64,000 nt of DNA from Trichobilharzia regenti (lineage: Eukaryota; Platyhelminthes; Trematoda; Strigeidida; Schistosomatidae): the NCBI GenBank assembly GCA_944472135.2, contig OX235268.1, forward strand, positions 12,096,589 through 12,160,588, read 5' to 3'. The translations under genes were made by a program, and so were the position numbers. The notes beneath the pieces were generated by a model. The model worked only from the letters and a program-made list of their open reading frames with translations, searched no databases and was not told where the DNA came from. Below are positions 2,284 through 64,000 of this stretch, piece by piece. The first letter of the stretch is position 1; every line of letters starts with the position of its first letter.

Positions 2284-4600
2284 GTATGAGCATATATTAT
2301 TTATACTGACATCTTGTTCTACCTGATGAGAAACAAGGAGAGATTTCGGAATAGAGGGGGTGTTGGCGGTCAGACAGTATGGTTTTATACCATTCTTCAC
2401 GTGCATTCAAATGCCTTTCTAATAAGGTAGTGACGAGCTGACTGAGTTTTACACCACTATTCCTACCAACTTTCAACATCCTTCTTAGGATGAAATAGCC
2501 CTTTTTCAGAAGCCCAGGAAAGACTAATGGAGAGCAGTGAAGTAGAATAGGTAAGATACGAGAGTTGAAAAATTGTGAAAGCTGAGGTTGAGTGATTCCA
2601 GATAGTCTGAGTTTCTAATTGTAGTAGGTTACATGAAGCAATTTCTTGGAAATCGTAAGATGAAGTGAAAGAGAGACGGAGAGAGAACAGCACTCTGAGG
2701 ATCTCCAGCTTCAGTAGGTAAGGGAGGTGAAGAAACACCGTTATATACCGTGTACTGCATCCTATTAGATAAGTAGGAGTGCAGCCAGCTGACAGCCCAT
2801 GAATCAGTTTACGTAAGGCTAAGCTTGTTAAGCAAAAGACCTTTTGGTACAGATTCGAAAGCCGATGTGTAATCAAGGAATGTACAACGGACATACTTGG
2901 CCCCTTTTTCTATGGAGGATACAATGTTGTAATGAAACACAGCAGCAGCGTCTAAAATACTGCTACCCTGTCTGTAAGCGAACTGCTTTGGATCATTTGA
3001 GAAGCTTAGGGAGGGAACAAGTTTTAGTAACAATAATTTCTCCATTAGTTTCAAAAAAGGAGAGGTAATAGCAATAGGTCTAAACTTAACACTATTTCCA
3101 GAACCAGACTTGGGTACTGGGATGATTTTATACCTTTCCACAGAGAAGGTATAACATTATTAGAAAAAGAAGTATTGAGAACGTTTGTAAGTGGGTTACT
3201 TAAAATATCAGCACATTTCCTAAGAACAATGGCAGGTATGCCATCAGGGCCTAGACTCTGGGAAGGTTTAAGAGATTTTAAACATTTAAGAACACCAGAA
3301 GTATTGAAACTATGAAAGTCACTGGCCATTTTATTAGTTAAATTGAAGGCAAAAAAGACATTTGGAGGGCTGACAAAGGATCTATTAAGAGTACTTACAT
3401 TAATAGAAGGGGCAAAATAACGATGCTTACCACAACCTGTAATTTCTCTGGAAAGCTTTCATATGTTTCCTGGATTTTACATGACGAAATTCTTTGATTA
3501 TAAATAATGTTTAGCCTCTTGATTTCGGATGCGATTTGGATGTTTATCCTCCAAAGACCAGATTTATCCTTAGTCTTTTACAGTCTCTCTTTTTCTCTTC
3601 GAAGCGTTTTGAGATGAGTGGCGGAGAAACGGTCCATTCTTTTGAGAAGTATCTGTTTTGGACAGCAAACATCAAGGCAGAATTAAAGATAGTCAAATTG
3701 GAAACAGTATCATCCAGTTTGTGTTCACTGAAAAGTTCCCAGTTTGTGTCATTTAGTATACATCTTAGTTTGAGCACATTCTCCTGTGAGTAACACCTTT
3801 GCTGTGTTTTCCTGGACAGATATGAGAGGATAATATAGTGAGATCTGTTATATATCTTAGTTAATATCCGAATAATACAATGATCAAAGTTCATTAAAGG
3901 AGCACATCTGCGTGCTTCATATATTTCCTCATATTTTCTCATCATTAATAAATACTAGATCCAGTGTTTTATCAAGTCGAGTAGGAAATTTAGCAATATC
4001 GACATGACCCAATGATTCAAGGAAAGAACAATGGCAGCAATTGAAATCTCCTGTGAAAACTGATAAAGTGTTTTCAAGATGTGTAACAGTGATTTCACTG
4101 AATTCATCAGCAAAATCAGATAGATACGAAGCAGAACAGCCAGGAGTAACATAAATGTTCGAGACGAAGACGCATTGAAACTTGGATAAGTGTTTCGGAA
4201 GACATTTGAATGTTATACAATCAATAAATCCACTAGAGAAGGAAAAACACACATCATTTGAAGTTGACCCGTTGAGAATGAATGAAAGTCGCAACATATC
4301 CACCTCTTTTCTTTCTGGAGCATAGTCGATCTTGTCTAAACAATGTAAAACCATTAAGAGAAACCAGGTTGTCATCATAGAGTTCATAGAGCCATGTTTC
4401 ATGTAATGCAACAATCGCCTTGACGTGATAGGTATCAGTAGATAAGAGAGACTGGAGATGCATAATTTTGTTGGGAAGTGAACGGCAGTTTGAACTGACA
4501 ATAACAGGAATAGTTGTGCGATATACAGGTGACTGTTTAAGAGCACGTTGCCAAACACCGTGATGTTTTCTCTTAGTTTGATTAGGTGCATGAAAGGCAT
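2206..4600 (-). pseudogene. CR1-like endonuclease-reverse transcriptase pseudogene
   Basis: Fragments in different frames align in order with the 1,025-residue ORF at 24,640-27,717. The endonuclease part keeps the LHETWL stretch (intact copy: LQETWL) and a TGDFN box. The reverse transcriptase part keeps FRPIAITSPFLK and a FLDYTSAF box containing the first catalytic Asp. The region expected to hold the YADD box (around 2,460-2,890) is scrambled by frameshifts. The last piece keeps a HPLYS..SPCFSSGRTR motif and then meets the LTR. Frame breaks in nearly every segment mark it as ancient. No functional product is expected. Confidence 0.85.
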
Positions 4601-4714
4601 ATGGTTTGAAACGTTTAATGAATGAATTACTGTATTTTATACGATTTGTAATCGTATTTTATTAAAATTAGAATGAAAAAATGATGTATTAGATGCAATA
4701 TGTAGATGCCGCCT

Positions 4715-5720
4715 CTTATCTAAACACACACTACTTTTATAATTTTACACACTGATCAAATCCAACAATCTACACTTGATTTTGTTATCTTTACCAATTG
4801 ACCAACTTGACAACGAAAAATGACCCCAGACAGACGAACAATGATCAAGTTAGTAAACTTTATTTTGATATCATAACAGACGTACTAATGCCTTAGTTAT
4901 TTGGTTTAGTGATCTTCATTGCTATTTTGACTTTCAATATGCCCTTTTTACTTGAACTAAGTCTATTTTTCTCACCCCTAACTCTTTTGTTACATATGTG
5001 CTGAGATTTTGTGAATTCTGGTTTATTAATACTTTGATAAAGCTGTAAGCAGCATCAAATAGCGAAACGTCAGTGAAAGCAATATCGTTTTGTTTTCCAC
5101 TCATTGGAAAATACAAAAACCTTTATTATAATGAATATCATATACCCAATGCCCAAATTTTTTCAAACCGTTAAAAGTGAACTTGGTTTGGGCATATTTG
5201 ATAAAATAAAGAGGCTAAATTGTAAATTGTAATAAGATGTTACAGAATTGGTAGGCTTAGCATAAAATCACAAAGGTTGACAAAAAATTAAGGGTAACGA
5301 TGGGGTGAAATAACCTGGGTGGGGAAATCGATAGTGGAGAATAGATAAGAAAGGCGATTGAGTTGTCATTACGAAAAGAATTACCTGTTTATGATGGCCA
5401 TGGCAGGGACAGGGGTTGGATGTATTTCTTTTGGAAACAAAGCGTGGTTTTGAGCTTTTGAAAAGCTAGTGCCTTGGCAATGCCTAGATCTCTTAATTTC
5501 ACTCCTTTTGAATGGTTTGATTGAATCTTTTATATTACTTTGAAAGATTTGTCGAAAGGCGCAGAATGTCCTGAATTGACCAGATCTTTTGTCAATATCT
5601 CCTTAATAACTCCTATGACCCAATGTTTATATTTCAGGATAGTGAAGACATTGTACCATAAAATGATCATAATGATAATAATAGTAAGAAAAATTATGAT
5701 CCTGGTGAACTTATTGTATT
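4715..5720. other. AT-rich interval between two old LINE copies (left arm)
   Basis: No gene is recognised. At 5,020-5,110 there is a gcgaaacgtcagtg box followed (other strand) by a tttatcaaagta box, resembling the module at 61-170. The mirror interval is 61,990-62,995. Confidence 0.5.
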
Positions 5721-5723
5721 ATT

Positions 5724-8700
5724 TATTATTATTTTATCCTTTATTTATTAGAGGAACATAGGGCTTCAGCTGCGCGTCTCCAGTGCCTTCTGTTTTCTGC
5801 CAACTCTTTTCCCCGCTCCAAGTCTGCCCACATGCTTTCATCTCCTCCTCACATGACCTCCTGCAAGTCACCCTTGGACGACCGACTCGCCGCTTCCCTT
5901 TCGGGTTCCACTCGAGCAATTGACTGGCGTGTGATGTCACTTGATGGTTCCCTCAGCGCATGGCCAATCCACTTCCATTTATTCCGGCCTATTGGTTTCA
6001 CAATAGGTTCCTGGTTGGTTCTCTCATTGCCAGAGATCCCTGTTGCTGATCTCTTCTGGCTGGCCATCTGATCTTGAGTATTGAGCGAAGAAAACTGTTG
6101 ATGAAGGTCTGAAATTTGTTTGAGATGCTCTTTATGACGCGCTGGTCAAGTCTCAGATCCGTATAGTAGCACTGACTGACTTCACATTGGAGTTGAAAAT
6201 CCGGATCTTATTTTTGATGACGAATGCTGTTGTCCTCCTCACAGACTTAAGAGTAGTGAAAGCTTGTCTTGCTTTTCCGATTCTGGCTTTGATATCCTTG
6301 TTAGTTCCACCAGCCTGTAGTTGAAACGATGTTTCCCAGGTAGGTAGGTGAGTAAAGGAGGTTGTTTCCTTCAGGGTCCTCCCATATATGCTGATTGTCG
6401 TCTGTTGTTGTTGTTTTTGCTGTTGCTGTTGACCTGGAATCTCCATCACCTCTGTTTTATCTATGTTCACCTGAAGTGTAGGCCTATCTTTGATGCTTCT
6501 TCTGCCAGCTTGTTGCTTTTCACTTGCATATCTTCCAGCTTGTGGGAAATCAGACATATATCATCGCTGAAGTCCAGATTCTCCAATATTTTTGTGTGAG
6601 TCCATTGTTATGCCTGTCTCCTCATTCCCCGTTGTCTGTCGCACTGGAATCAGGAAGATCATTGGTGATAGTAGACACCCTCGCCTCACTCCCGTCCTCA
6701 CTTCGAAGGATTCCGTAGGTTCCTGTTGTGGATTACTTGGCATACATCACTGTCGTATAACTACTGGATTAGATGTATAATTGTCGATGGCACCCCTTGT
6801 TGGTAGCGAAGTAGTTTTCAAATCACCTCTCGATCGACGCTGCGCTGTCAAAGGTTTATTCAAAGTCGATGAAGTTGAGACAGAGAGGTGACTGCTGTTC
6901 CAAGCTATGTTCAATGATGATCCGTGGAGTGGCGATTTGATTTATACATGACTTGTTTCTCCTGAATCCAGCTTGTCCCAGTCAAAGTCTCGCATCCAGA
7001 GCTGGTTTGATTCTCTTCCGGATGATGCTGCTTAGTATTTTGCTTGTGATGGACAGGAGCGTAATTCGGCGCCAGTTTTTGCATTGAATGAAGTCTTCTT
7101 TCTTTGGCAGTTTGAATACGTATCCTTTCTTTCACTCCTCAGGTACTTTGCCCTCTTTCCACAGCTCATCCAGTAGTGGTGTCATCAAGTCCGCTGTTGT
7201 CTCTGAGTCTATTTTCAAAGCTTCTGCTGTGATTCCATCTAGTCCTGCTGCTTTCCCAGCTTTTAGCATCTTGATTGTCTTCAGGACTTCTGATTTCGTC
7301 GAAGGGTCGATGTTCACTGGTAGTTCTGTTTCCGTCGTCAGTATTGTTCGGCGCGTTTTAGGTGGTGGTCGATTTAGAAGTCTTTCGAAGTGTTCAGCCC
7401 AGTGTTTTCCTTGCTCTACTTCTTTGGTGACTGACTTTCCATTGTCATCCTTTACTGGCCTTATCTGTGTTGAACGTTTGCCCGATAGGTTCCTAGTTGT
7501 TTGGTGGAGTGTGGCGAGGTCTCCTCTGGCTGCAGCTTGTTCTGCTTCACTTTCCATGACTTCATAATATTTTCTTTTATCTTCCCTGGCACTCTTCTTT
7601 ACTCTTTTGTTCAGCGTATTATAACTTGCATTCAACTCCTGTTTTCGTTTCTCACCGGTGCACTGGATAATCTTTTGCTTCACTGTCCTTCTCTCTTCTA
7701 TTAGTTTCCAAGTGTCCGTAGTGAGCCACTGTTTGTCCTGCCTCTTCCTTCTGCCTAGAATTTCTGTGCAGGTTTGACTCCACACCGTTTTCAAGTTGTC
7801 CCAGTGCTTTTCGACGCTGACCCTTTCGCTGGTGTCGATTTGTGTCTCGGCTTTTTTCGTTTATGCTTGAAATGAAGATGTCCTTTGTATCTTGGTCCTT
7901 CAGTTTTGGGTGTTGAACTTGGCTTGTTGTCTATCTGCAGCGCCTGCTTCCCTGAAAACTCTTATTTTGATTTGGATTGTCCCTTTTACGAGATAGTGGT
8001 CTGAGCCAACGTCTGCTCCTCTTCTTGCTTTTGTGTCAAGTAGGCTGCGCCTCCACTTCCTTGAGCAGGATTGATGTGAAGTTAATTTGGTTTTTGGTTC
8101 GCCCATCTGGTGACACTCATTTAGCCTTGTGGATATCTTAGTGTTTGCATACGCTGCCACCAATCACTAGTTCGTTGAAGGTGCAGAAGTCGGCGAAGAG
8201 TTCTCCATTTTCATTCATTTAGTCAAGAGCTTCTCTACCCGCGATTAGTTCTCTTCCTGTGTTGTCTGGTCTCAGTTTGGCGTTCATGTTTCCTATTAGT
8301 ATCTTAATGTCACCAGCTGAAGTATTGTCCATTTTTGCCTGTAGTTTATTGTAGAAATCTTCTTTCTTTTCGATTTCTGAGTTGTTTGTGGGTGCATAGC
8401 ATGGCATAATTGGCACTTTACTTCCATTGGAGTTGAATCTGGCGGTCATTAGCCTGGACGAGATCGCCTCCTATTGCATAAGGGCCTTTGTTGCCTTTGT
8501 TGGTAACATCATGATAGCCACGCCTTCGGAGTGCATGTGGTTATCTTCTGGGTGACCGGAGTAGATCACTGACTCATCCGTTGAAAATTTGATGAGTTTA
8601 TTCCCGTTCCATTTGCTTTCACATATCCCCAGTACTTGAATTCAGGATTGGTTTCATTTCGTTTCCGATCTGTTCGGCTTCGCCAATCTCGTACATAGTG

Positions 8701-8829
8701 CGGACATTCCATGTCCCCACACAGACTTTTTCCTTTGGTGCAAAGAGATTCATCGTGCTGAAGTTTCTGTAGCAACTTTGTTTACAGAGTGGGGTTGCTA
8801 GCCTCACGCTTGAGAAAGGGATTGTTACA
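5724..8829 (-). mobile_element. RTE-like LINE, broken copy A (left arm)
   Basis: The minus strand carries a LINE of the RTE clade (SR2-like in schistosomes). It starts near 8,829 with a 5' leader, continues with an apurinic endonuclease-type domain whose first motif is VGTWNVRTM (about 8,720-8,690), a reverse transcriptase (about 7,790-6,560), a glutamine-rich low-complexity stretch (about 6,440-6,400) and a C-terminal WKWIGHALR box (about 5,970), and ends in an A- and TAA-rich tail near 5,724. Several stops and frameshifts are shared with the right-arm copy, so it inserted and decayed before or during the duplication. Confidence 0.9.
5734..8807 (-). pseudogene. RTE-like endonuclease-reverse transcriptase pseudogene (copy A, left)
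   Basis: The longest surviving piece (7,794-7,132) covers the linker and the start of the reverse transcriptase, with a KAAGLDGITAEAL box typical of RTE fingers. Further on, a FIDFEKTFDS box carries the first catalytic Asp, and the usual FADD box appears as FSDD near 6,575. Endonuclease pieces lie at 8,807-8,566, 8,449-8,219 and 8,163-7,900. A stop falls just after the VPEE piece at 7,132, among others. The protein would have nicked target DNA and copied element RNA. This copy cannot make it. Confidence 0.85.
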
Positions 8830-10414
8830 TTAAGATAAAGTTCAGAGAGAAGCGACCTTATGTGTTTCTCCTCTTAGAATCAGATAATAAGGAATAAAAC
8901 AATCAGAACAACATCAGCAAAGGAAAATTATTCGCAGCAAAGAGGGCAACAAACGACAAAAGCAATACAAAACAACATCATGCAATACAGTTAAGCTAAG
9001 TTAACTAACATGATATCAAAACCACAGACTCACTGACTTGGGCCATCTTGAACATATAAATCCAACAGTATATACAATTACAGATATGAGTTAGTGTTAA
9101 AAGGTCACAAAATGACAAACAGTTAGTTATAGGCATTATCTGTCAAAAACACTATATCCACATGTTTAGTGTTCGAAAGTAAACGGATTTCAATAATTTC
9201 CAAAACTTCGTGGTCAGAAACACCAGAGAAATGAGAGTTTTATGTAACTAAGCAATTGTAGAGCACTAATCAATATATATATATAGTGGGTCAGGGTAAA
9301 CAGAGAGAGTGAATAAGTTTCGTCTCTACATATGTCTGGTCTCTGTCTATTAATCACTAAAGTCCCAGCTATGACTAGGAGGCGTAATGGTGTGCCTTCA
9401 TTTCATTTATTTTTCGCAAGCTGCCTCCTTCTGGTTCGATAATTAAACAATCGATAACTCTGTATGACGAGTGCGATATATCAAATATCTATCATCCAAC
9501 ACCTAAATCGTCTAGGTTACTGCGTGGTTAAGATTATTCTGCATGCAAATGAATGAGACTGTGAGACAGTTTCAGTAGAGAGAGGCAGGTTGTTAATTGT
9601 AACGAAAGCCTGTTGTCAACCACAGTTGAACCATAGCAGTAACAAAACACAAACTATTATGAAAACAGAAAACCAGTATATCAGCACACGATATTACAGA
9701 ACAATAGTTATGTACTAGCCAATCGCACACAAACATTAAATCATTATCACTGTTAAATAGTAACACAGATTTTTGTCGTAAATAACTGAAGTGTGTATAC
9801 CATTAGCAGATTCAAGGACTCTGCGTTACTCAGGAATTAAAACCGACTATATAGAAGAAAGCATCGATTGGTCCGCTGGTCACAATTTTTCGGTGTTTGT
9901 CGTAGCTACTTTCGGAAAAATTGCATGCATGACATCTCTCATTCAAATCAATACCAATCGAGATTGTTAGTGAACCTTATTCTCACAGCTCATGGATAGT
10001 CATAACACAGACAACGTTAAAATTTCTTCACATGTTTTTTTATAAAATGTTGCCGTACTTTAGGTAAGGTTACTTCATTCCACTCTCATTTGAGTTTCAA
10101 GAGGAATTGTTTATGATTCACTACTGCTGAGACTTACAGAACTTGTTGTAGTCTCATCTTGGTGTCGGTTGTACCACCATCTGCATTACTATGTATAGGC
10201 TGATCACTTTGACAACGGAAACATATTCACTTGTCAAATATTAAGCATTCTGTGATATTAACCAGCGTTCTTCTATACTATGACAAGCATTATTTAATTT
10301 TAATTGATTTATCTTTTCAACGACCAAAACATTAGCAGTTCGTCAGAGGACTGACTGACGAATGCTGTCACTGTATGCTGTTATTGATCTCTGACAGATC
10401 AGTAGACACTTTAA

Positions 10415-10438
10415 CAACAGTTACTTAAGTAACTGTTG
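10415..10438. repeat. Perfect 24-bp palindrome
   Basis: The sequence is identical to its own reverse complement, centred on TTAA, with half-site caacagttactt. The mirror copy is at 57,267-57,290. It could be a cruciform or a dimeric binding site. No function is visible. Confidence 0.7.
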
Positions 10439-11226
10439 AAACTATTGTCAGAGTTTACTCATTCTTAAACTTTGTTTAAACAATACATATCCACTGGGTG
10501 TGCTCACTCTAGCCTTCTCAAATCGATATTTAGGTTACTGAACAAAAGTTAAGTTTTTGTACTACTGTCACAAAGTCAGCTTAGTTGATTTCAATATTTC
10601 TGTCTAAGTTTTAAAGACCGTTTTATTCTTAACATTGCTTTTTATTTTTCTTCTGTCTCATTACATTATATTGCTAAAATATGCCTTATATAAGATAGTA
10701 TACCATCTAGAGATAACTTTGTGAAACTCTGTGGAGTAAGTGTATGTCTCTGAAGTCACCTCATTGTAGAATCAATATTTTGATGTGAATCAAATGAAGG
10801 GGTGTATCTATCAAACTCAATGACTTAGTATTATATTATAGAATTTTATATATCGACTGACATCATGATGTTGTAAGGAAAAGGATTCTTACTTGAATAA
10901 AATAAAGATCATCTCAATCAGTCTAAAATTTTTGCTCTGTTTTATTTCTTCGACTAGTCAGCGATGCACAAAACCTCTGGAAGTGATGAGATGAGACATA
11001 CCTTTTGAAAAGAATGTCGTATACATACACATATATGGAATTAATAGTAGGTGAGATGGAATCAATGATATTATTGACAAGTTTATTTTGAAGGTGTTCG
11101 TACATGGTCAGGAAATTTGTTTGCAAGTAAACCTTTCACATTTGCAGGATTTTTATTGAGACCATTATCTACTGTGTGAAACTTTGTGAAATTTTACTAC
11201 AGTCTAGAGTGAGCTTCGACTTTCAG

Positions 11227-11409
11227 CTAAGTCAACCCTTCAAAGAAGACTTTCGAAAATGTGCGTGAGTACAGCTCGATCATCAAGAAATTAGATAATA
11301 TTTGAACAAGTAGAGTCAATGATATTTTAGTCATTGTGCTCCTTGACAGATTAGATTGTTCAGTGATTTTAGCATCGGCCTCAACGAAACCTGATGAATT
11401 AATAGTCAT
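11227..11409 (-). CDS. Short hypothetical ORF (left-arm copy)
   Basis: Sixty codons with a hydrophobic middle (ISLTLLVQILSNFLMIELY), mirrored at 56,296-56,478. A tatataag box lies about 15 bp upstream of the ATG. I recognise no family. The arm-to-arm identity reflects the palindrome and is not evidence of selection. It is probably a chance ORF. Confidence 0.15.
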   Translation of the reverse strand: MTINSSGFVEADAKITEQSNLSRSTMTKISLTLLVQILSNFLMIELYSRTFSKVFFEGLT

Positions 11410-11524
11410 GCAAGAAAGAGGCTTATATAACCCTATGGCAGAGCATGCGGAAATGAGTCTTTTTCAAGGATAAACTTACTGGTTTATTTTTTATAACGTT
11501 TCACACCATCTTGACATTATTTTA

Positions 11525-12600
11525 AGAAAACATCAAGTTGACTTCATTTAATCTCCAAAAATTGTGGAAGCAGCCGACTGTACCAGAAAATGAGAGGAGA
11601 ATCGGAAGTACAATAAGAACAGTTCCGAGTACGAAATCTCAGAAAAGCTGGATATTGGTAACGAGTGAGACTTAACACCTAGGATATGGTGTAAGAAACT
11701 ACAGAGAACACCTACATTCCAACCATCATGGATGGGTGTGAGACACTCAGCAACACTGTTGAGGGAAACTAAGCGGAATAACCTCGACAGTTTTCATAAT
11801 TGACTTGGAATGAAAACGCCATAGGTATTTAATGAAAGAATATTAGGAATATTAGTGAACGGATGACTGTGAGCTGATGAAGTGAAGCCTGATGTAGGAT
11901 CAGTTGGATCAGTGATTGGATGAACCACGAAATAGGCAACACATTAGGCATATCCGACATTCTCTATGACACTACATAAAATATGCAGAAAGTGTAAAGT
12001 GATGAAGTTAACCTAAATATCAAATTGAGAGATACTGAGACCACTTATGAGAGACACCACGACGCAGACTACAAGTGGAAAATAAATTCACTAGAAATAA
12101 TGATCATTTTTCTTTTTAGTGAGGTATCATGTTGTTGAGATTTGTTTTAAACATGGATTAGGCATCACTGTTGAGAGATTCAGGCTTGTGTAGTCGCAAT
12201 AACTGAAAATGACTGAACAAGACACACAGGTATGAACGTAGAGTACGCTGTTACATGGACATTCAGATGTATTTTGAATGCTGATATTCACAGTTGTTCT
12301 CTAGTTTTTTCTTCGAATTCCCAGTGTAACATAGAGCTGCAGGCTAGATGCTTGAAGTTTCTGTAGCAGTGGTAATTATAACGTGATGAGGTTGCTAGTC
12401 TCATGCCCAATTTCTCCTTTTGACCAGCAATATTCCTGGTTTAGCGAGGTAAATGAGTGCGCCGGCTGGGGATCGAACCCTAGACCATGTGCAGGGTCGG
12501 TGAGTGTCCTAACCGCTGTACCACCAGTTCTGTTTATTCTTTATTAAGAAACTTGAAAGTCTGATGAATTTCCTGTTGGTGGAGAGTAAAACGTATTGAG
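11525..12600 (+). repeat. Segment X, copy 1 (flanks the RTE insertion)
   Basis: This 1,076-bp segment is repeated directly at 15,712-16,786 and occurs once, inverted, in the right arm at 55,105-56,180. The copies are nearly identical, with differences near 11,550 and at the outer ends. It contains a tRNA-headed SINE-like element at 12,350-12,529. Copy 1 ends ...attgag at 12,600 and abuts the truncated 3' end of RTE copy B. Confidence 0.95.
12350..12529 (-). mobile_element. tRNA-headed chimera with RTE 5' sequence (segment X copy 1)
   Basis: On the minus strand a tRNA-like head starts near 12,529 with an A box (tggtacagcggttaggac) and a B box (gggttcgatcccc), and ends in gccggcgcac. It then runs into tacctcgct...gctggtcaaaagg...gactagcaacc...gctacagaaacttca. 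That body matches, with gaps, the 5' leaders of RTE copies A and B. The 5' end of the head is altered, so the acceptor stem no longer pairs fully. Confidence 0.7.
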
Positions 12601-15600
12601 GTCTCACCCGCCACCTCCATATTTGGTTCCACTAGAGCAATGGCCTGATGCGCGCGCTTTGTCACCCCTTGGTCTCCTCAGAGAGTGTTCAACCCATCTC
12701 CACTATCTGCTGCACACTTGTTGGGCGATCGGTTCTTGTTTTGCTGGTTCCCAGCCACAGTTTCTAGTTGGTGATTCTTTCTGGCCCGTCCATCTGATCT
12801 TCAGTATAGAGCACAGATAGTTGTTGATAAAGGCCTGCAATAGCCTGTTGGAAGTATTCTTTGTGACCCGCCCACCATGTTTCTGATCCGTTTAGAAGAA
12901 GTGACTGACTTGACGTTTGTATTGAAAATCCGACTGAATTTTGTTGTTGAAACTGAGTGACGAAGATTTCCAGATTTCTTTCAGGTTGATGAATGTGTTT
13001 CTCGCCTTCCCGAATCTCGATTTGTTATCCTCGTCAGTTCCGGCTGCCTGTGGTTGAGACATGCTCCCTAGATAAGTGAATGGAATAACCTCTTTGAAAT
13101 CCCTCCCGCTGATGGTGATTGGTGCTGGATGTTGCTGCTGCTGTTGTTGTTGGTGGTGGTGGTTGGTTATTTTCATAACCTCCGGCTTGTCTATGTTCAC
13201 TTGGAGTCCTCTCTTGGCCGACTGCTTCTTCGACCAGTTTGTCGGTTTTCGCTTGTAAGTCTTCGATTTTGTGTGACATTAGACAAAATTCAACATCCAC
13301 GCGCGAAATCCAGGTCATCTAGGTTCTTCACATCGGTCCAGGATATCCCTAACTTCTCGTTTCCCACTGTCTGACGCATAATCCAGTCAGTCCACCACAA
13401 TTAGGAACATCATTGGTGGGTGATAATAAGCACCCTTGTCTGACTTCTGTGTTTACTCCAAATGCCTCGCTGAGTTTTCCATTGTGGATCACTTGACATG
13501 TGCCGTTGTCGTACAGCTGTTGAATAAGGTTCATGAATATTTGGGGTACGCCGTAGTACTCGAGTAGTTTCCAAATTACTTCACTATCAACGCTGTCGAA
13601 GGGCTTCTCAAAGTTTATAAAGATGAGGTAGAGGTTTGATCACCATTCCATGCTTTGTCCTGTGATGATGTTGCTTAGAGCTGCAATTTGATCAGAACAT
13701 GATTTGCCTTTCCTGAATCCAGCTTGTTCTGGTCGGCGTTCTGTCTCCAGTGCATCTCTTTTTCTCTCCAAGAAGATGCGACTCAGGATTTTACTTGGCG
13801 TTGACAGGGGCATGATTCCTCGCCAGTTCTTGCAGAGTCCTAAGTCGCCCTTCTTTAAATGATTCAAAAGATAACCTTTCTTCCAGCCAGTAGGCACTTT
13901 TACCCCCTTCCGGAACTTTTGCAATAATGGAGTGAGCATATCTGCTGTCGTCTCTGGGTCCGCTTTCAGTGCTTCAACGGTTATTCCATCTGGTCCAGCT
14001 GCTTTTCCACCTTTCAGAGGCCTAATTGCAATCAAGACATCATCTTTCGTTGGAGGATTGGTGTCAGCTTGCAGTTGTGTACGCGCTTTTGTTGGTATTC
14101 CTGGATGGGTTGCTGGTGATGGTCGGTTCAAGAGTCCTTTGAAGTGATCCGCCCATTGTTTAATCTGTTTTTCTTCCTCGGTAATTGGGTTCCCTTGGCT
14201 GTCTTTTATAGGTTTCACTTGTGTTGATCTCTTCCTGGATACAAACTTGGTTTTCTGATATAGTGTCCTCAGGTTAATTTTGTCTGCTGCCTTCTCAGCT
14301 TCAGTGGCGAAGTTGTCATAGAGTCGTATTTTCTCCTTCCTAGCACTCTTCTTCACTTCTATGTCCAGCGCTGTGTATGTTGAGTTAGCGTCTCCGTCTC
14401 CTGTCCGTCCTTGCATTGAATCATTTTCTCTTTCACCATTCTCCTCTGTTCTATTAATTTCCAAGTGTCCATTGAGAGCCATTCCATGTCTCGTCTCTTC
14501 TTGCTTCCTAAAAATGTTGAACACGTTTCGTTGAAAATCAACTTCAGGGAGGTCCAATGTTCTTCCACACATGATTCTTCAGTGATGTCGCGTAGTGTTT
14601 CCGGCTTTGCTCTGACAGTTGCAATGAAAGTGTCCTTTGTGGTTGTGTCCTTCAGTAATTGAGTGTTGAACTTGCATTGTGGTCTGTCCCCAGCTATCCC
14701 CGAGGCTTTTAGCTTCACCTTGAAAGTCCCTTGTGCTAGATAGTGGTCTTAAACCACATCTGCTCCTCTCCTCGACATTGTGTCCAATAGGCTCCGTCTC
14801 CACTTTCTTGAAATTGAGATGAAGTCTATTTGGTTTTTAGTGTTTCCATCTGGTAAAATCCATGTCGTCTTGTGTATATCCTTGTGTTTGAAAACGCTGC
14901 CACCAATCATCATGTCATTAAAGGCGCAGAAGTCTGAGAAGAGCTCACCATTGTCGTTCATTTCACTGATGGCCTCTCGATCCATGGTGAGTTCTCTTCC
15001 TGTGTTGTCTCCTCCCAGCTTCGCATTCATGTCGCCCATCAGGATTTTGATATCGCCATTTGGGACGTTGTCCTTTACTGTTTGTAGTTGTGTGTAGAAC
15101 GCTTCCTTCTTCACTTGTTCTGAGACGTTTGTAGGCGCATAGCATTGAATGACTGTAACTTTCATTCCTTTTGAGTTGAACCTGGCTGTCATCATCCTGG
15201 AGGAGATTGATTCCCACTCCATGAGAGCTTTGGCTGCCTTTGGTGACATCATGATGGCCACTACCTTGGTGTGCTCAAGGGTATCCTCTGGGTGTCTCTC
15301 CAAATGGTACTTTGCACCTACCACATCCCAACAATTCTATTCTGTACCTTCTCATTTCAAAGGCTATCTGGGCAGCCTTTCCAGTTTCGTACGTTGTACG
15401 AACATTCCAGTCACCCATCTTTACTTTTGCTCTCATTGAAAGAAGGAACATAAGCTGACTGGCTTCCCGAAGGCTTTCACCAGCCTGCGTCATTTCGCTT
15501 CCCCGATTCCAGCGAAAAATAAGGCTATTGTTTATGTTTTTAGAGTTTTTAATATATTTGCACGTTGAAGTATCTGTAGCGATTTGGTTGTTTTACGGGG

Positions 15601-41040: not shown

Positions 41041-41042
41041 AA

Positions 41043-50049: not shown

Positions 50050-50539
50050 TTAATCCTTTTTGTCCCTCAACAGCAAAGTACATATGAACTTTTGAGGATA
50101 ATCATCTTCAGGTATGTCTGTCTGTCTGGATTCAACATAGAACTTGGCACCAAAGTGCAGCAGTTCGAGCTGCCGCGTTCCAAATAGCACACAGAGGTAG
50201 ACAAGAAGATGAGTGAAGAGAATCATTACAGTCTGACAAGTATAAGAGTGAAACAGAATGGGTAATGGTAGAAAGGAATATGAAAGATTACAGAGACTGA
50301 ATACATCCGCGCCATTGACAACGATTTTGAGCCATGTCACCACCTATTGTCTCCAGCCATTGATTCCTAGAGTCCCGAGGGCCCCAACCTGGAAGTCTGC
50401 ATCTCCCTACCTGACTCAGTTTAACTGTCAAGATTTCATGGATTGATAACATGTTTTTGTTTGGCCACCACTGGCTCTTTTCCAAATTGTACCTATATCA
50501 GCTAGCAATGCCCGTCGGGGGAGGCGATGAATAGGCATT
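50050..50539 (-). repeat. Dispersed repeat with DMAQNRCQWR motif (right arm)
   Basis: Mirror of 21,354-21,843. One base is missing in the LTVK region relative to the left copy, which breaks the ORF start. Confidence 0.55.
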
Positions 50540-53200: not shown

Positions 53201-53392
53201 GGACAGTGGTTAGGACTCTCGCCGACCATGCACATGGTCCGGGGTTCGAGCCCTCACCGACGCACATCTGATATCTATGGTCGGCCTGAAAATTTGGGCT
53301 ACCGATATCCATGCTGAAAATTCCATACTTGTACCAAAAATACAGTGTGGAATCAAGCTGTAAATCAAAAATAAAAAATAAAAAAATAATAA
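53201..53392 (+). mobile_element. tRNA-headed SINE with CR1-like ends (right arm)
   Basis: Mirror of 18,499-18,690. In sense orientation the head with B box (ggggttcgagccc) ends at 53,263, the LINE 5'-like body spans about 53,275-53,310, and the LINE 3'-like tail spans 53,311-53,392. Confidence 0.8.
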
Positions 53393-55104
53393 AATAAAGC
53401 ACAACTGACTGAATGTGACTTATTTTCCAAAATTTCTTAATCCTATGGAGCTCACGAATGTTTTGGTTCGTGAAAATGTCAGAGCTCTTTGAGCGGACAC
53501 TTAGATGTAAACTTCATCGATAGCAAGAAGCCTATTATTAATTATGACTATTATGAATTCAGTTGTTACAATGTGAGGGTAACTTCAAAGTGCGGAGTGA
53601 TATTGCTTGGTCTCGCTTTTGGATTAATCATGTTGTTCAGCTTTAATGATAGACTCCCATGTGAATCTTTTGAACGAAGTTTTAGACAGCGAAGTAGAAA
53701 TTTGATACAATTTCTCTGAGATTTTGCAGTTTAATACGATCTTAAAATAATTCAACTGTACTGATTGACGATGCGTTTCTTCGATTGCCTGTATATAGTT
53801 TCACACTGAGATCAAATTCAACTTAGATTAACAAAAATTATTGAAATGTTTCGTTCCTGTATGAATCTGAAGACGAATGCATACAAGGCCCTAATTTTAC
53901 TCGAATTTCCTTGAAAGGAGGGAAATAGAGAAACAACCGTTGAAGCTCTGCTAATGGAAAATGCGTACAATATCAGTCATAGAACATATTCACATTCGAC
54001 GTTACACATTAGAAAAGCCTCAATCATTTTGTAAACGTAACGCTACTCATTTCTTGATGTCTATAAATTTTTTGCTCACAAATGAATACATTTTTTCACG
54101 AAATCCATTGTATTTACCTATCATCTCTTGAGTCGCCTCCTTTCTGCTTTTTCATACCATTTACTGATTCATATTTCTGATTAGTTCATACTTCTGAGCC
54201 ATCTTAACCAATATACTCACAGTGCAAAATATCACTGACTGGTAAATTTCAATTTTGTAAGCCACTTGTAATTATGATTGTAAAGGTACAAAAATAAACC
54301 CGTTGAGATGATAATTTTTACTGTAAAATTTGTGAAATGTCTGCAAATGAATCACTTATTTGACGTTATTCGAGTAACTTTCGAGATCTAACTGTAAAGT
54401 TGCGAAATAAGCATAAGCGCTCAAGGTCTGTCCTAAAGTGTATGTTGACATTTGTAAAACCTAAACATATACTGTTATATAAGTTCAAAAAGATTCAGAA
54501 CTCCTTCATGAAATGCATGTGCATAATTCATAACTTATAATGAGACAAAAGAAATTTCAGATCTCTTTAAAGATGTTATGGTGAGCAGAATAATGTCAGT
54601 GTATGCGTGATAACTCAGTGTGAGTTAAAACTAAACAGAGCTGTTGTAACTTCCATATTGGTGTCAAGTACGTTATTCATAAATGAGGCATTCATTCAAA
54701 AGAAATTTGGTCAGTTTTTGGAGTGCATCTGTTTGACACTATTACTCATCTCATTTCTTTATATTTGAAATATTTTGCATTGTATTACCAAATTCCTCTG
54801 CATTTCGAGTAAATCCAAACACATTGATGCATTTCGCTCTATCACATCCGTATTCTATAAGAATAATCACATCACTGTGCCACGGGAATATAATCATTTT
54901 TTCAAATGGCTTTCGGATAAACCTTGAATTCACCACAAATTATAATTTTTACTGATTGAGTTTCAGTGTAGAGAGAATATCTCATTGAATTGTTGAATGT
55001 TATGCAACAATTGATGAAGCTTATATTATCACTGAAACAGTCAAATACAATACACACAACCGAAATTTCGCATGTTAGGTTCACAGTATCATTTCGTTTA
55101 TGAA
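53393..55104. other. Right-arm interval without recognised genes
   Basis: Mirror of 16,787-18,498. Contains the ORF at 53,489-53,719. Confidence 0.5.
53489..53719 (+). CDS. Hypothetical ORF with one membrane segment (right copy)
   Basis: Identical to 18,172-18,402. No family recognised. Confidence 0.2.
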   Translation: MSGHLDVNFIDSKKPIINYDYYEFSCYNVRVTSKCGVILLGLAFGLIMLFSFNDRLPCESFERSFRQRSRNLIQFL

Positions 55105-56180
55105 CTCAATAAGTTTTACTTTCCACCAACAGGAAATTCATCAGACTTTCAAGTTTCTTAATAAAGAATAAACAGAACTGGTGGTACAGCGGTTAGGACA
55201 CTCACCGACCCTGCACATGGTCTAGGGTTCGATCCCCAGCCGGCGCACTCATTTACCTCGCTAAACCAGGAATATTGCTGGTCAAAAGGAGAAATTGGGC
55301 ATGAGACTAGCAACCTCATCACGTTATAATTACCACTGCTACAGAAACTTCAAGCATCTAGCCTGCAGCTCTATGTTACACTGGGAATTCGAAGAAAAAA
55401 CTAGAGAACAACTGTGAATATCAGCATTCAAAATACATCTGAATGTCCATGTAACAGCGTACTCTACGTTCATACCTGTGTGTCTTGTTCAGTCATTTTC
55501 AGTTATTGCGACTACACAAGCCTGAATCTCTCAACAGTGATGCCTAATCCATGTTTAAAACAAATCTCAACAACATGATACCTCACTAAAAAGAAAAATG
55601 ATCATTATTTCTAGTGAATTTATTTTCCACTTGTAGTCTGCGTCGTGGTGTCTCTCATAAGTGGTCTCAGTATCTCTCAATTTGATATTTAGGTTAACTT
55701 CATCACTTTACACTTTCTGCATATTTTATGTAGTGTCATAGAGAATGTCGGATATGCCTAATGTGTTGCCTATTTCGTGGTTCATCCAATCACTGATCCA
55801 ACTGATCCTACATCAGGCTTCACTTCATCAGCTCACAGTCATCCGTTCACTAATATTCCTAATATTCTTTCATTAAATACCTATGGCGTTTTCATTCCAA
55901 GTCAATTATGAAAACTGTCGAGGTTATTCCGCTTAGTTTCCCTCAACAGTGTTGCTGAGTGTCTCACACCCATCCATGATGGTTGGAATGTAGGTGTTCT
56001 CTGTAGTTTCTTACACCATATCCTAGGTGTTAAGTCTCACTCGTTACCAATATCCAGCTTTTCTGAGATTTCGTACTCGGAACTGTTCTTATTGTACTTC
56101 CGATTCTCCTCTCATTTTCTGGTACAGTCGGCTGCTTCCACAATTTTTGGGATCTAAATGAAGTCAACTTGATGTTTTCT
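55105..56180 (-). repeat. Segment X, single copy (right arm), empty site of RTE copy B
   Basis: The reverse complement of 11,525-12,600 and of 15,712-16,786. Its two outer flanks match the left flank of copy 1 and the right flank of copy 2, so this is the unduplicated, uninserted state. Confidence 0.95.
55177..55352 (+). mobile_element. tRNA-headed chimera with RTE 5' sequence (right arm)
   Basis: Sense orientation: A box at about 55,182-55,199, B box at about 55,225-55,235, head end gccggcgcac near 55,248, then RTE-leader-like sequence including gactagcaacctc and gctacagaaacttca to about 55,352. Confidence 0.7.
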
Positions 56181-58879
56181 TAAAATAATGTCAAGATGGT
56201 GTGAAACGTTATAAAAAATAAACCAGTAAGTTTATCCTTGAAAAAGACTCATTTCCGCATGCTCTGCCATAGGGTTATATAAGCCTCTTTCTTGCATGAC
56301 TATTAATTCATCAGGTTTCGTTGAGGCCGATGCTAAAATCACTGAACAATCTAATCTGTCAAGGAGCACAATGACTAAAATATCATTGACTCTACTTGTT
56401 CAAATATTATCTAATTTCTTGATGATCGAGCTGTACTCACGCACATTTTCGAAAGTCTTCTTTGAAGGGTTGACTTAGCTGAAAGTCGAAGCTCACTCTA
56501 GACTGTAGTAAAATTTCACAAAGTTTCACACAGTAGATAATGGTCTCAATAAAAATCCTGCAAATGTGAAAGGTTTACTTGCAAACAAATTTCCTGACCA
56601 TGTACGAACACCTTCAAAATAAACTTGTCAATAATATCATTGATTCCATCTCACCTACTATTAATTCCATATATGTGTATGTATACGACATTCTTTTCAA
56701 AAGGTATGTCTCATCTCATCACTTCCAGAGGTTTTGTGCATCGCTGACTAGTCGAAGAAATAAAACAGAGCAAAAATTTTAGACTGATTGAGATGATCTT
56801 TATTTTATTCAAGTAAGAATCCTTTTCCTTACAACATCATGATGTCAGTCGATATATAAAATTCTATAATATAATACTAAGTCATTGAGTTTGATAGATA
56901 CACCCCTTCATTTGATTCACATCAAAATATTGATTCTACAATGAGGTGACTTCAGAGACATACACTTACTCCACAGAGTTTCACAAAGTTATCTCTAGAT
57001 GGTATACTATCTTATATAAGGCATATTTTAGCAATATAATGTAATGAGACAGAAGAAAAATAAAAAGCAATGTTAAGAATAAAACGGTCTTTAAAACTTA
57101 GACAGAAATATTGAAATCAACTAAGCTGACTTTGTGACAGTAGTACAAAAACTTAACTTTTGTTCAGTAACCTAAATATCGATTTGAGAAGGCTAGAGTG
57201 AGCACACCCAGTGGATATGTATTGTTTAAACAAAGTTTAAGAATGAGTAAACTCTGACAATAGTTTCAACAGTTACTTAAGTAACTGTTGTTAAAGTGTC
57301 TACTGATCTGTCAGAGATCAATAACAGCATACAGTGACAGCATTCGTCAGTCAGTCCTCTGACGAACTGCTAATGTTTTGGTCGTTGAAAAGATAAATCA
57401 ATTAAAATTAAATAATGCTTGTCATAGTATAGAAGAACGCTGGTTAATATCACAGAATGCTTAATATTTGACAAGTGAATATGTTTCCGTTGTCAAAGTG
57501 ATCAGCCTATACATAGTAATGCAGATGGTGGTACAACCGACACCAAGATGAGACTACAACAAGTTCTGTAAGTCTCAGCAGTAGTGAATCATAAACAATT
57601 CCTCTTGAAACTCAAATGAGAGTGGAATGAAGTAACCTTACCTAAAGTACGGCAACATTTTATAAAAAAACATGTGAAGAAATTTTAACGTTGTCTGTGT
57701 TATGACTATCCATGAGCTGTGAGAATAAGGTTCACTAACAATCTCGATTGGTATTGATTTGAATGAGAGATGTCATGCATGCAATTTTTCCGAAAGTAGC
57801 TACGACAAACACCGAAAAATTGTGACCAGCGGACCAATCGATGCTTTCTTCTATATAGTCGGTTTTAATTCCTGAGTAACGCAGAGTCCTTGAATCTGCT
57901 AATGGTATACACACTTCAGTTATTTACGACAAAAATCTGTGTTACTATTTAACAGTGATAATGATTTAATGTTTGTGTGCGATTGGCTAGTACATAACTA
58001 TTGTTCTGTAATATCGTGTGCTGATATACTGGTTTTCTGTTTTCATAATAGTTTGTGTTTTGTTACTGCTATGGTTCAACTGTGGTTGACAACAGGCTTT
58101 CGTTACAATTAACAACCTGCCTCTCTCTACTGAAACTGTCTCACAGTCTCATTCATTTGCATGCAGAATAATCTTAACCACGCAGTAACCTAGACGATTT
58201 AGGTGTTGGATGATAGATATTTGATATATCGCACTCGTCATACAGAGTTATCGATTGTTTAATTATCGAACCAGAAGGAGGCAGCTTGCGAAAAATAAAT
58301 GAAATGAAGGCACACCATTACGCCTCCTAGTCATAGCTGGGACTTTAGTGATTAATAGACAGAGACCAGACATATGTAGAGACGAAACTTATTCACTCTC
58401 TCTGTTTACCCTGACCCACTATATATATATATATATTGATTAGTGCGCTACAATTGCTTAGTTACATAAAACTCTCATTTCTCTGGTGTTTCTGACCACG
58501 AAGTTTTGGAAATTATTGAAATCCGTTTACTTTCGAACACTAAACATGTGGATATAGTGTTTTTGACAGATAATGCCTATAACTAACTGTTTGTCATTTT
58601 GTGACCTTTTAACACTAACTCATATCTGTAATTGTATATACTGTTGGATTTATATGTTCAAGATGGCCCAAGTCAGTGAGTCTGTGGTTTTGATATCATT
58701 TTAGTTAACTTAGCTTAACTGTATTGCATGATGTTGTTTTGTATTGCTTTTGTCGTTTGTTGCCCTCTTTGCTGCGAATAATTTTCCTTTGCTGATGTTG
58801 TTCTGATTGTTTTATTCCTTGTTATCTGATTTTAAGAGGAGAAACACATAAGGTCGCTTCTCTCTGAACTTTATCTTAA
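56181..58879. other. Right-arm interval without recognised genes
   Basis: Mirror of 8,830-11,524, including the 24-bp palindrome at 57,267-57,290 and a (TA)n run near 58,423-58,438. Confidence 0.5.
56296..56478 (+). CDS. Short hypothetical ORF (right-arm copy)
   Basis: Identical to 11,227-11,409. A ttatataag box at 56,274-56,282 precedes the ATG. No family recognised. Confidence 0.15.
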   Translation: MTINSSGFVEADAKITEQSNLSRSTMTKISLTLLVQILSNFLMIELYSRTFSKVFFEGLT

Positions 58880-61800
58880 TGTAACAATCCCTTTCTCAAG
58901 CGTGAGGCTAGCAACCCCACTCTGTAAACAAAGTTGCTACAGAAACTTCAGCACGATGAATCTCTTTGCACCAAAGGAAAAAGTCTGTGTGGGGACATGG
59001 AATGTCCGCACTATGTACGAGATTGGCGAAGCCGAACAGATCGGAAACGAAATGAAACCAATCCTGAATTCAAGTACTGGGGATATGTGAAAGCAAATGG
59101 AACGGGAATAAACTCATCAAATTTTCAACGGATGAGTCAGTGATCTACTCCGGTCACCCAGAAGATGACCACATGCACTCCGAAGGCGTGGCTATCATGA
59201 TGTTACCAACAAAGGCAACAAAGGCCCTTATGCAATAGGAGGCGATCTCGTCCAGGCTAATGACCGCCAGATTCAACTCCAATGGAAGTAAAGTGCCAAT
59301 TATGCCATGCTATGCACCCACAAACAACTCAGAAATCGAAAAGAAAGAAGATTTCTACAATAAACTACAGGCAAAAATGGACAATACTTCAGCTGGTGAC
59401 ATTAAGATACTAATAGGAAACATGAACGCCAAACTGAGACCAGACAACACAGGAAGAGAACTAATCGCGGGTAGAGAAGCTCTTGACTAAATGAATGAAA
59501 ATGGAGAACTCTTCGCCGACTTCTGCACCTTCAACGAACTAGTGATTGGTGGCAGCGTATGCAAACACTAAGATATCCACAAGGCTAAATGGGTGTCACC
59601 AGATGGGCGAACCAAAAACCAAATTAACTTCATATCAATCCTGCTCAAGGAAGTGGAGGCGCAGCCTACTTGACACAAAAGCAAGAAGAGGAGCAGACGT
59701 TGGCTCAGACCACTATCTCGTAAAAGGGACAATCCAAATCAAAATAAGAGTTTTCAGGGAAGCAGGCGCTGCAGATAGACAACAAGCCAAGTTCAACACC
59801 CAAAACTGAAGGACCAAGATACAAAGGACATCTTCATTTCAAGCATAAACGAAAAAAGCCGAGACACAAATCGACACCAGCGAAAGGGTCAGCGTCGAAA
59901 AGCACTGGGACAACTTGAAAACAGTGTGGAGTCAAACCTGCATGGAGGTTCTGGGCAGAAGGAAGAGGCAGGACAAACAGTGGCTCACCACGGAAACTTG
60001 AAGACTAATACAGGAGAGAAGGACAGTGAAGCAAAAGATTATCCAGTGCACCGGTGAGAAACGAAAACAGGAGTTGAATGCAAGTTACAATACGCTGAAC
60101 AAAAGAGTAAAGAAGAGTGCCAGGGAAGATAAAAGAAAATATTATGAAGTCATGGAAAGTGAAGCAGAACAAGCTGCAGCCAGAGGAGACCTCGCCACAC
60201 TCCACCAAACAACTAGGAACCTATCGGGCAAACGTTCAACACAGATAAGGCCAGTAAAGGATGACAATGGAAAGTCAGTCACCAAAGAAGTAGAGCAAGG
60301 AAAACACTGGGCTGAACACTTCGAAAGACTTCTAAATCGACCACCACCTAAAACGCGCCGAACAATACTGACGACGGAAACAGAACTACCAGTGAACATC
60401 GACCCTTCGACGAAATCAGAAGTCCTGAAGACAATCAAGATGCTAAAAGCTGGGAAAGCAGCAGGACTAGATGGAATCACAGCAGAAGCTTTGAAAATAG
60501 ACTCAGAGACAACAGCGGACTTGATGACACCACTACTGGATGAGCTGTGGAAAGAGGGCAAAGTACCTGAGGAGTGAAAGAAAGGATACGTATTCAAACT
60601 GCCAAAGAAAGAAGACTTCATTCAATGCAAAAACTGGCGCCGAATTACGCTCCTGTCCATCACAAGCAAAATACTAAGCAGCATCATCCGGAAGAGAATC
60701 AAACCAGCTCTGGATGCGAGACTTTGACTGGGACAAGCTGGATTCAGGAGAAACAAGTCATGTATATATCAAATCGCCACTCCACGGATCATCATTGAAC
60801 ATAGCTTGGAACAGCAGTCACCTCTCTGTCTCAACTTCATCGACTTTGAAAAAACCTTTGACAGCGCAGCGTCGATCGAGAGGTGATTTGAAAACTACTT
60901 CGCTACCAACAAGGGGTGCCATCGACAATTATACATCTAATCCAGTAGTTATACGACAGTGATGTATGCCAAGTAATCCACAACAGGAACCTACGGAATC
61001 CTTCGAAGTGAGGACGGGAGTGAGGCGAGGGTGTCTACTATCACCAATGATCTTCCTGATTCCAGTGCGACAGACAACGGGGAATGAGGAGACAGGCATA
61101 ACAATGGACTCACACAAAAATATTGGAGAATCTGGACTTCAGCGATGATATATGTCTGATTTCCCACAAGCTGGAAGATATGCAAGTGAAAAGCAACAAG
61201 CTGGCAGAAGAAGCATCAAAGATAGGCCTACACTTCAGGTGAACATAGATAAAACAGAGGTGATGGAGATTCCAGGTCAACAGCAACAGCAAAAACAACA
61301 ACAACAGACGACAATCAGCATATATGGGAGGACCCTGAAGGAAACAACCTCCTTTACTCACCTACCTACCTGGGAAACATCGTTTCAACTACAGGCTGGT
61401 GGAACTAACAAGGATATCAAAGCCAGAATCGGAAAAGCAAGACAAGCTTTCACTACTCTTAAGTCTGTGAGGAGGACAACAGCATTCGTCATCAAAAATA
61501 AGATCCGGATTTTCAACTCCAATGTGAAGTCAGTCAGTGCTACTATACGGATCTGAGACTTGACCAGCGTGTCATAAAGAGCATCTCAAACAAATTTCAG
61601 ACCTTCATCAACAGTTTTCTTCGCTCAATACTCAAGATCAGATGGCCAGCCAGAAGAGATCAGCAACAGGGATCTCTGGCAATGAGAGAACCAACCAGGA
61701 ACCTATTGTGAAACCAATAGGCCGGAATAAATGGAAGTGGATTGGCCATGCGCTGAGGGAACCATCAAGTGACATCACACGCCAGTCAATTGCTCGAGTG

Positions 61801-61985
61801 GAACCCGAAAGGGAAGCGGCGAGTCGGTCGTCCAAGGGTGACTTGCAGGAGGTCATGTGAGGAGGAGATGAAAGCATGTGGGCAGACTTGGAGCGGGGAA
61901 AAGAGTTGGCAGAAAACAGAAGGCACTGGAGACGCGCAGCTGAAGCCCTATGTTCCTCTAATAAATAAAGGATAAAATAATAATA
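58880..61985 (+). mobile_element. RTE-like LINE, broken copy A (right arm)
   Basis: Mirror of 5,724-8,829, in sense orientation here. It has an endonuclease start with VGTWNVRTM near 58,990, reverse transcriptase from about 60,030, FSDD near 61,140, WKWIGHALR near 61,735 and a 3' tail of TAA repeats at about 61,970-61,985. Around 59,930-60,025 it differs from the left copy at about a dozen positions, far above the background. Confidence 0.9.
58902..61975 (+). pseudogene. RTE-like endonuclease-reverse transcriptase pseudogene (copy A, right)
   Basis: It has the same broken layout as the left copy. The best piece is 60,026-60,577 (183 codons; the left copy has 220 because a stop here at about 60,000 shortens it). 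Shared stops and frameshifts show that decay preceded the last homogenisation of the arms. It is inactive. Confidence 0.85.
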
Positions 61986-62995
61986 AATAATACAATAAGT
62001 TCACCAGGATCATAATTTTTCTTACTATTATTATCATTATGATCATTTTATGGTACAATGTCTTCACTATCCTGAAATATAAACATTGGGTCATAGGAGT
62101 TATTAAGGAGATATTGACAAAAGATCTGGTCAATTCAGGACATTCTGCGCCTTTCGACAAATCTTTCAAAGTAATATAAAAGATTCAATCAAACCATTCA
62201 AAAGGAGTGAAATTAAGAGATCTAGGCATTGCCAAGGCACTAGCTTTTCAAAAGCTCAAAACCACGCTTTGTTTCCAAAAGAAATACATCCAACCCCTGT
62301 CCCTGCCATGGCCATCATAAACAGGTAATTCTTTTCGTAATGACCACTCAATCGCCTTTCTTATCTATTCTCCACTATCGATTTCCCCACCCAGGTTATT
62401 TCACCCCATCGTTACCTTTAATTTTTTGTCAACCTTTGTGATTTTATGCTAAGCCTACCAATTCTGTAACATCTTATTACAATTTACAATTTAGCCTCTT
62501 TATTTTATCAAATATGCCCAAACCAAGTTCACTTTTAACGGTTTGAAAAAATTTGGGCATTGGGTATATGATATTCATTATAATAAAGGTTTTTGTATTT
62601 TCCAATGAGTGGAAAACAAAACGATATTGCTTTCACTGACGTTTCGCTATTTGATGCTGCTTACAGCTTTATCAAAGTAATAATAAACCAGAATTCACAA
62701 AATCTCAGCACATATGTAACAAAAGAGTTAGGGGTGAGAAAAATAGACTTAGTTCAAGTAAAAAGGGCATATTGAAAGTCAAAATAGCAATGAAGATCAC
62801 TAAACCAAATAACTAAGGCATTAGTACGTCTGTTATGATATCAAAATAAAGTTTACTAACTTGATCATTGTTCGTCTGTCTGGGGTCATTTTTCGTTGTC
62901 AAGTTGGTCAATTGGTAAAGATAACAAAATCAAGTGTAGATTGTTGGATTTGATCAGTGTGTAAAATTATAAAAGTAGTGTGTGTTTAGATAAGA
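61986..62995. other. AT-rich interval between two old LINE copies (right arm)
   Basis: Mirror of 4,715-5,720. It includes the 60-codon ORF at 62,593-62,775, which overlaps a tgacgtttcgct box and is probably repeat-derived. Confidence 0.5.
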
Positions 62996-64000
62996 GGCGG
63001 CATCTACATATTGCATCTAATACATCATTTTTTCATTCTAAATTTTAATAAAATACGATTACAAATCGTATAAAATACAGTAATTCATTCATTAAACGTT
63101 TCAAACCATATGCCTTTCATGCACCTAATCAAACTAAGAGAAAACATCACGGTGTTTGGCAACGTGCTCTTAAACAGTCACCTGTATATCGCACAACTAT
63201 TCCTGTTATTGTCAGTTCAAACTGCCGTTCACTTCCCAACAAAATTATGCATCTCCAGTCTCTCTTATCTACTGATACCTATCACGTCAAGGCGATTGTT
63301 GCATTACATGAAACATGGCTCTATGAACTCTATGATGACAACCTGGTTTCTCTTAATGGTTTTACATTGTTTAGACAAGATCGACTATGCTCCAGAAAGA
63401 AAAGAGGTGGATATGTTGCGACTTTCATTCATTCTCAACGGGTCAACTTCAAATGATGTGTGTTTTTCCTTCTCTAGTGGATTTATTGATTGTATAACAT
63501 TCAAATGTCTTCCGAAACACTTATCCATGTTTCAATGCGTCTTCGTCTCGAACATTTATGTTACTCCTGGCTGTTCTGCTTCGTATCTATCTGATTTTGC
63601 TGATGAATTCAGTGAAATCACTGTTACACATCTTGAAAACACTTTATCAGTTTTCACAGGAGATTTCAATTGCTGCCATTGTTCTTTCCTTGAATCATTG
63701 GGTCATGTCGATATTGCTAAATTTCCTACTCGACTTGATAAAACACTGGATCTAGTATTTATTAATGATGAGAAAATATGAGGAAATATATGAAGCACGC
63801 AGATGTGCTCCTTTAATGAACTTTGATCATTGTATTATTCGGATATTAACTAAGATATATAACAGATCTCACTATATTATCCTCTCATATCTGTCCAGGA
63901 AAACACAGCAAAGGTGTTACTCACAGGAGAATGTGCTCAAACTAAGATGTATACTAAATGACACAAACTGGGAACTTTTCAGTGAACACAAACTGGATGA
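62996..64000 (+). mobile_element. Old CR1-like LINE, 5' part (right arm, cut by window end)
   Basis: Mirror of the 5' third of the element at 1,120-4,714. It starts at ggcggc (62,996) followed by atctacatattgcatct, as in the 5' region of the intact LINE but lacking the tcttgggctacc part. Endonuclease remnants run from 63,110 with the HETWL and TGDFN boxes. The reading frame is broken by several shifts. Confidence 0.85.

Follow-up and report, generated by a model that had tools for sequence, protein, structure and literature searches.

Inverted arms and centres within the window

The stretch of DNA analysed here, the window, comprises 64,000 nucleotides of contig OX235268.1 (C7) of the schistosomatid fluke Trichobilharzia regenti (C7:12,096,589-12,160,588, in an assembly of 954 Mb in 548 contigs) and is occupied largely by two long arms that mirror one another across a 7.34-kb centre. 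Comparison of the window with itself by BLASTN yields three collinear inverted blocks, pairing positions 3,710-12,603 with 64,000-55,102 (99.58%), 15,710-24,249 with 56,181-47,644 (99.74%) and 27,641-33,976 with 47,648-41,312 (99.80%). Across 23,779 aligned columns the blocks accumulate 58 mismatches and 11 gap openings (E 0.0), so that the inverted pairing lies far beyond chance. Inverted arms of more than 10 kb that are at least 99% identical are a feature of sex-chromosome ampliconic palindromes, and the arms in the window show both properties.

An earlier note on this DNA had described a near-perfect palindrome and, indeed, the left arm (to 33,973) is the reverse complement of the right arm (41,315-64,000) with 99.6-99.8% identity, the inner junctions being located at 33,973/41,315, exactly where they had been placed. 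The outer limits proposed, 3,710 to 64,000, enclose genuine pairing, but position 3,710 is no boundary, as positions 215-1,809 pair with 67,691-66,096, beyond the end of the window. The features are as follows, where L and R denote arms and S and T denote the two types of centre:

1..214, no strand: edge of centre T0, matching the centre T2
215..33973, minus strand: arm L1, from the self-comparison and the array map
11521..16786, no strand: 1,081-bp direct repeat (copies at 11,521-12,600 and 15,707-16,786) around an insert of ~3.1 kb
24250..27640, minus strand: long interspersed nuclear element (LINE) inserted in L1, with endonuclease and reverse transcriptase; the site is empty in R1
33974..41314, no strand: centre S1, 7.34 kb, of S type and shorter than S2 and S3
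41315..64000, plus strand: arm R1, which extends past the window to about C7:12,173,226 (centre T1)

An alternating array beyond the window

Flanks of 200 kb on the right and 10 kb on the left were added to the window, using coordinates (reg) in which reg 1 is window base 1; the 274 kb thus mapped contain no N. Extension of the contig, proposed earlier as a means of finding the outer boundary, reveals that the arms run past the window on both sides. The mirror-image arms are real in this assembly, but instead of a single palindrome the window represents one part of an alternating array of ~269 kb (about C7:12,085,715-12,354,634), with seven arms, of which both end ones are partial, and three S and three T centres in the order R0(partial)-T0-L1-S1-R1-T1-L2-S2-R2-T2-L3-S3-R3(partial). 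Between 12.126 and 12.355 Mb, the inner arm segment occurs six times in nearly identical form, in the orientation + - + - + -, the sixth copy being partial. On the right, matching stops at reg 258,046 (C7:12,354,634), while on the left all 10 kb of the flank is still arm and the last match, at C7:12,085,715, is taken from search coordinates only. Those centres that lie within or to the right of the window map to:

reg 33,974-41,314: centre S1
reg about 76,639-78,615: centre T1
reg 120,834-134,417: centre S2
reg about 179,842-183,839: centre T2
reg 242,218-255,805: centre S3

The centres S2 and S3 measure 13.6 kb each and are themselves palindromic, S2 to 125,746/129,509 and S3 to 247,130/250,897, so that a spacer of 3.76 kb remains in each. 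The centre S1 corresponds to part of S2 in reverse and is ~6.2 kb shorter, since one of the arm sides is missing along with a portion of the spacer; the alignments that meet at its join share six overlapping bases. Because S2 and S3 are longer and palindromic down to the 3.76-kb spacer, the 7.34-kb spacer S1 is most simply read as a deletion product. Thus, the sharp inner boundary holds as to its position, but when set beside the two longer S centres it appears to have arisen secondarily, as a deletion junction. On the T0 side, positions 1-1,045 match unit positions 56,964-58,008 (98.9%), and from position 215 onward the sequence follows the unit from 45,581 downward. This T0-L1 join lies at an 831-bp repeat present in both the arm and the T centre, and L1 therefore lacks ~8.5 kb of T-proximal arm when compared with L3, including a membrane-protein-like open reading frame (ORF) that is described below.

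Across the array, the arms differ in insertions, deletions and tandem expansions. Two inserts in the left window arm have no counterpart in the right one, which upholds the earlier argument that arm-specific insertions speak against a simple artefact. The larger of these, the LINE of ~3.4 kb at 24,250-27,640, matches the Pfam models RVT_1 (1.6e-37) and Exo_endo_phos (1.3e-8). Its site is filled in L1, L2 and L3, partly filled in R2 and empty in R1, with tandem copies that have a period of ~3.1 kb in R2 and ~4.5 kb in L3; moreover, R2 aligns to the filled site of L1 and then, further on, unbroken to the empty site of R1. The other insert (12,601-15,706, ~3.1 kb) lies between the 1,081-bp repeats of L1 and is also present in L3, whereas R1 has a single repeat and no insert; one ORF of the insert matches RVT_1 weakly (E 8e-4), short of the curated cut-off. 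We considered the 1,081-bp repeat as a long terminal repeat (LTR), either solitary or belonging to an LTR retrotransposon, but dropped this reading because the repeat length varies between arms, being ~2,310 bp around the same insert in L3, and because the content of the insert is LINE-like, as judged from the weak RVT_1 match.

Among ten ORFs scanned against Pfam, one is clearly a LINE, two give weak matches of reverse transcriptase or endonuclease type below the cut-off and two give unrelated weak matches below the cut-off, which we take for chance; the remaining five have no match. Two ORFs of 198 and 203 amino acids (aa) at L009:4799-6516, with no Pfam match over the cut-off, resemble what we take to be pieces of a Penelope-type element. 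Parts of the array sequence recur in many places of the genome, and much of what remains looks transposon-derived. Scans of the window for transfer RNAs and for Rfam families were both empty.

Relatives on other contigs and a receptor-like reading frame

The core of the T centres has a relative on contig C1 (27.804-27.841 Mb), where the arms are likewise inverted and lie about 30 kb apart. Identity between the two C1 arms is 98.2% in a block of 3,419 columns and 98.4% in one of 560, but declines to 93.2% and 92.7% on the spacer side and to 87.7% at the outer end. Compared with C7, the C1 arms are 80-87% identical by block, apart from a single 385-column block at 71%, and at the outer end the left arm is 86% and the right arm 83% identical to C7. 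At their outer ends, the C1 arms therefore diverge from each other almost as much as they do from C7, such that the inverted duplication seems to be about as old as the copying between C1 and C7, the middle of the C1 arms having apparently been homogenised later. The S core has its relative on contig C8 (133.453-133.462 Mb), 86-91% identical to C7 by block, which contains a 334-bp inverted repeat that is 99.4% alike, and where the homology continues on one side only. This short inverted repeat is a possible founding seed, although the identical pattern would be expected had C8 lost an arm.

An ORF of 361 aa adjoins the T centres and is uninterrupted in five of five array copies (R0, R1, L2, R2 and L3); the region is deleted in L1 and lies beyond the reach of R3. 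The ORF has 14 matches in the genome, five within the array and the other nine all on C1. Two of the latter form a pair at 27.808/27.837 Mb that is 89% identical to C7 and 98.85% identical mutually over 1,567 bp, and both members have a stop at the same place; the other C1 matches are 67-81% identical to C7. From its methionine, 339 aa of the ORF were aligned with two paralogues. The ratio of nonsynonymous to synonymous substitution rates (Nei-Gojobori) is 0.38-0.45 for two C7 copies against four paralogues, the C1 pair being included only downstream of the stop. The hydropathy profile contains several candidate membrane segments, and the predicted product looks like a candidate seven-helix receptor of the rhodopsin-like G-protein-coupled receptor (GPCR) type. 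No relatives were found in Pfam (seven-transmembrane models included), the PDB (solved GPCRs included) or the protein database (0 Pfam families, 0 PDB matches), which lends no support to an assignment to rhodopsin-like GPCRs. In effect, the array maintains five open, near-identical copies of this gene.

The earlier note had raised the possibility that the palindrome is linked to W or Z. We used U2AF, which is presented as a Z/W marker in PMC8662593. The search returned 44 matches, none of them on C7. Of the nine best, eight are on C8 and one is on C9, and the three that exceed the curated cut-off are all on C8. These matches from one marker family speak against sex linkage of the window and, therefore, C8 is probably Z and C7 probably an autosome. 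The match at C9:1,731,608 is a U2AF fragment with one stop, and C9 is perhaps a W scaffold. Weak matches to the U2AF (RNA-binding) models at C4:102,556,774(-)/102,560,387(+) form an inverted pair with identical scores. Sulfotransferase exons at C8:62,421,236(-)/62,429,800(+) are likewise paired in inverted orientation, score identically and may mark a further palindrome; for a sulfotransferase exon on C6, the closest PDB entries are named oxamniquine-resistance sulfotransferase. The C6 exon and the clustering of U2AF copies on one large contig support the earlier note in its view of the genome as schistosome-like.

Exchange between arms and a proposed origin of the array

Pairwise divergence between arms is 0.07-0.51% over shared positions. 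Comparison of five arms over 25,505 sites identifies 175 variable sites, 46 of them informative, and the best tree fits 24 of these and conflicts with 22; simulation without recombination on the same tree produces a mean of 0.084 conflicting sites and a maximum of 2 (2,000 runs). When four arms are compared over 35,071 sites, 48 sites divide them two against two, of which 30 unite mates across T1 and T2 (R1-L2 and R2-L3), 10 unite like-oriented arms and 8 unite mates across S2. Of the 30 T-mate sites, 24 follow one another without interruption at unit 43.9-47.6 kb. The conflicting sites, together with the adjacent filled and empty versions of the LINE site in R2, support an exchange between arms that apparently keeps the copies alike. 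The T-mate block and the patchwork identity of the C1 sister point in the same direction, and the earlier proposal that recombination keeps the arms alike is thereby supported, albeit indirectly. The patterns are those of arm-to-arm gene conversion, seen through its traces, and unequal exchange fits them too. A version in which palindrome mates are the closest copies fails over whole arms and holds only in the block on the T side. We also note a block of 68 substitutions that is private to arm L2 and located at reg 97,700-105,700 (C7:12,194,300-12,202,300).

The locus is likely, in our view, to consist of inverted segmental duplications that alternate in a germline array on C7, itself probably an autosome, and that have been homogenised by recombination between the copies. 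An old inverted duplication with a membrane-receptor-like gene would have been copied between C1 and C7, and this T-core duplication would have come to adjoin an S core that the probable Z has as well. Multiplication as mirror-image units may then have proceeded via fold-back or unequal exchange between arms, to be followed by homogenisation through gene conversion and unequal exchange.

Several observations weigh against this explanation. When whole arms are compared, the closest copy of an arm is not its palindrome mate (L1-R1 0.32%, L1-L3 0.24%, L2-R3 0.07%), which argues against pairwise conversion alone; therefore either homogenisation acts array-wide or the likeness is partly due to recent duplication. 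Private sites number 87 in arm L2, and 68 of these fall in the 8-kb block, at unit 28-36 kb. Allelic recombination between arrays could alternatively have produced the conflicting site patterns. The copy number of the arms, like their order and phase, is as assembled, the search that located the left end of the array scores best candidates only and provides that end as search coordinates, and the probable autosomal status of C7 derives from one marker family.

Very recent copying of the whole palindrome unit two or three times, without continuing gene conversion, would account for the low divergence throughout and for insertions common to several arms. Such copying appears unlikely, however, given that 22 of the 46 informative sites misfit the best tree, that filled and empty LINE sites are adjacent in R2 and that identity is patchy in the C1 sister. 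Palindromes are hard to assemble, and the similarity of 99.5-99.8% could be allelic, as would be the case if two haplotypes or chimeric reads had been joined in opposite orientation. Nevertheless, we regard an assembly artefact of this kind as quite improbable, since six inner-arm copies on one chromosome exceed what two alleles can give, the mapped region is free of N, insertions, deletions and tandem expansions vary between arms, and a diverged palindrome surrounds the same core on C1. A W- or Z-linked amplicon, as suggested by the resemblance to mammalian sex-chromosome palindromes and by the S-core relative on C8, appears very unlikely in view of the distribution of U2AF, the 9-14% difference of the C8 relative by block and the position of the T-core relative on C1.

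The homogenised array of inverted duplications on C7 shares with the ampliconic palindromes of the mammalian Y and X (human P6, PMC3723533; X palindromes, PMC8981503) arms of more than 10 kb that are more than 99% alike, signs of arm-to-arm exchange and a multi-copy gene. It differs in being probably autosomal and transposon-rich, in having seven alternating arms in a row and in a gene unrelated to any named family. The willow sex chromosome (PMC7023750) provides another case of complex palindromic repeats outside mammals, whereas here the U2AF marker is found on contigs other than C7. Large inverted duplications formed by fold-back (PMC3907307) are similar in their inverted copies and short unshared spacer, and in the short inverted repeat at the homologous place on C8; by contrast, the C7 copies belong to an assembled germline genome, are repeated and homogenised, and their founding step is not visible. 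Among the titles listed from the literature, which concern palindromes (chiefly those of sex chromosomes in mammals and plants), inverted duplications and unrelated subjects, with subscription journals mostly outside the search, none announced a palindrome array in a flatworm. Within the assembly there is good support for alternating palindromes arrayed on what is probably an autosome, a structure that is unusual but not categorically new.

It is conceivable, and we put it forward tentatively, that conversion-homogenised palindromes are general in this fluke and no speciality of its sex chromosomes, given that the core occurs on two chromosomes; on C7, amplification together with conversion would then preserve the reading frames of the receptor-like genes, in contrast to the C1 pair, which is not amplified and has a premature stop in both members. 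It is chiefly from sex chromosomes that large, nearly identical palindromes are familiar, and conversion is regarded there as a substitute for absent crossing-over. A ZW animal that carries a multi-arm array on what is probably an autosome, and a diverged sister palindrome on C1, would make it possible to test directly whether palindromes depend on sex linkage and whether conversion within them protects genes.
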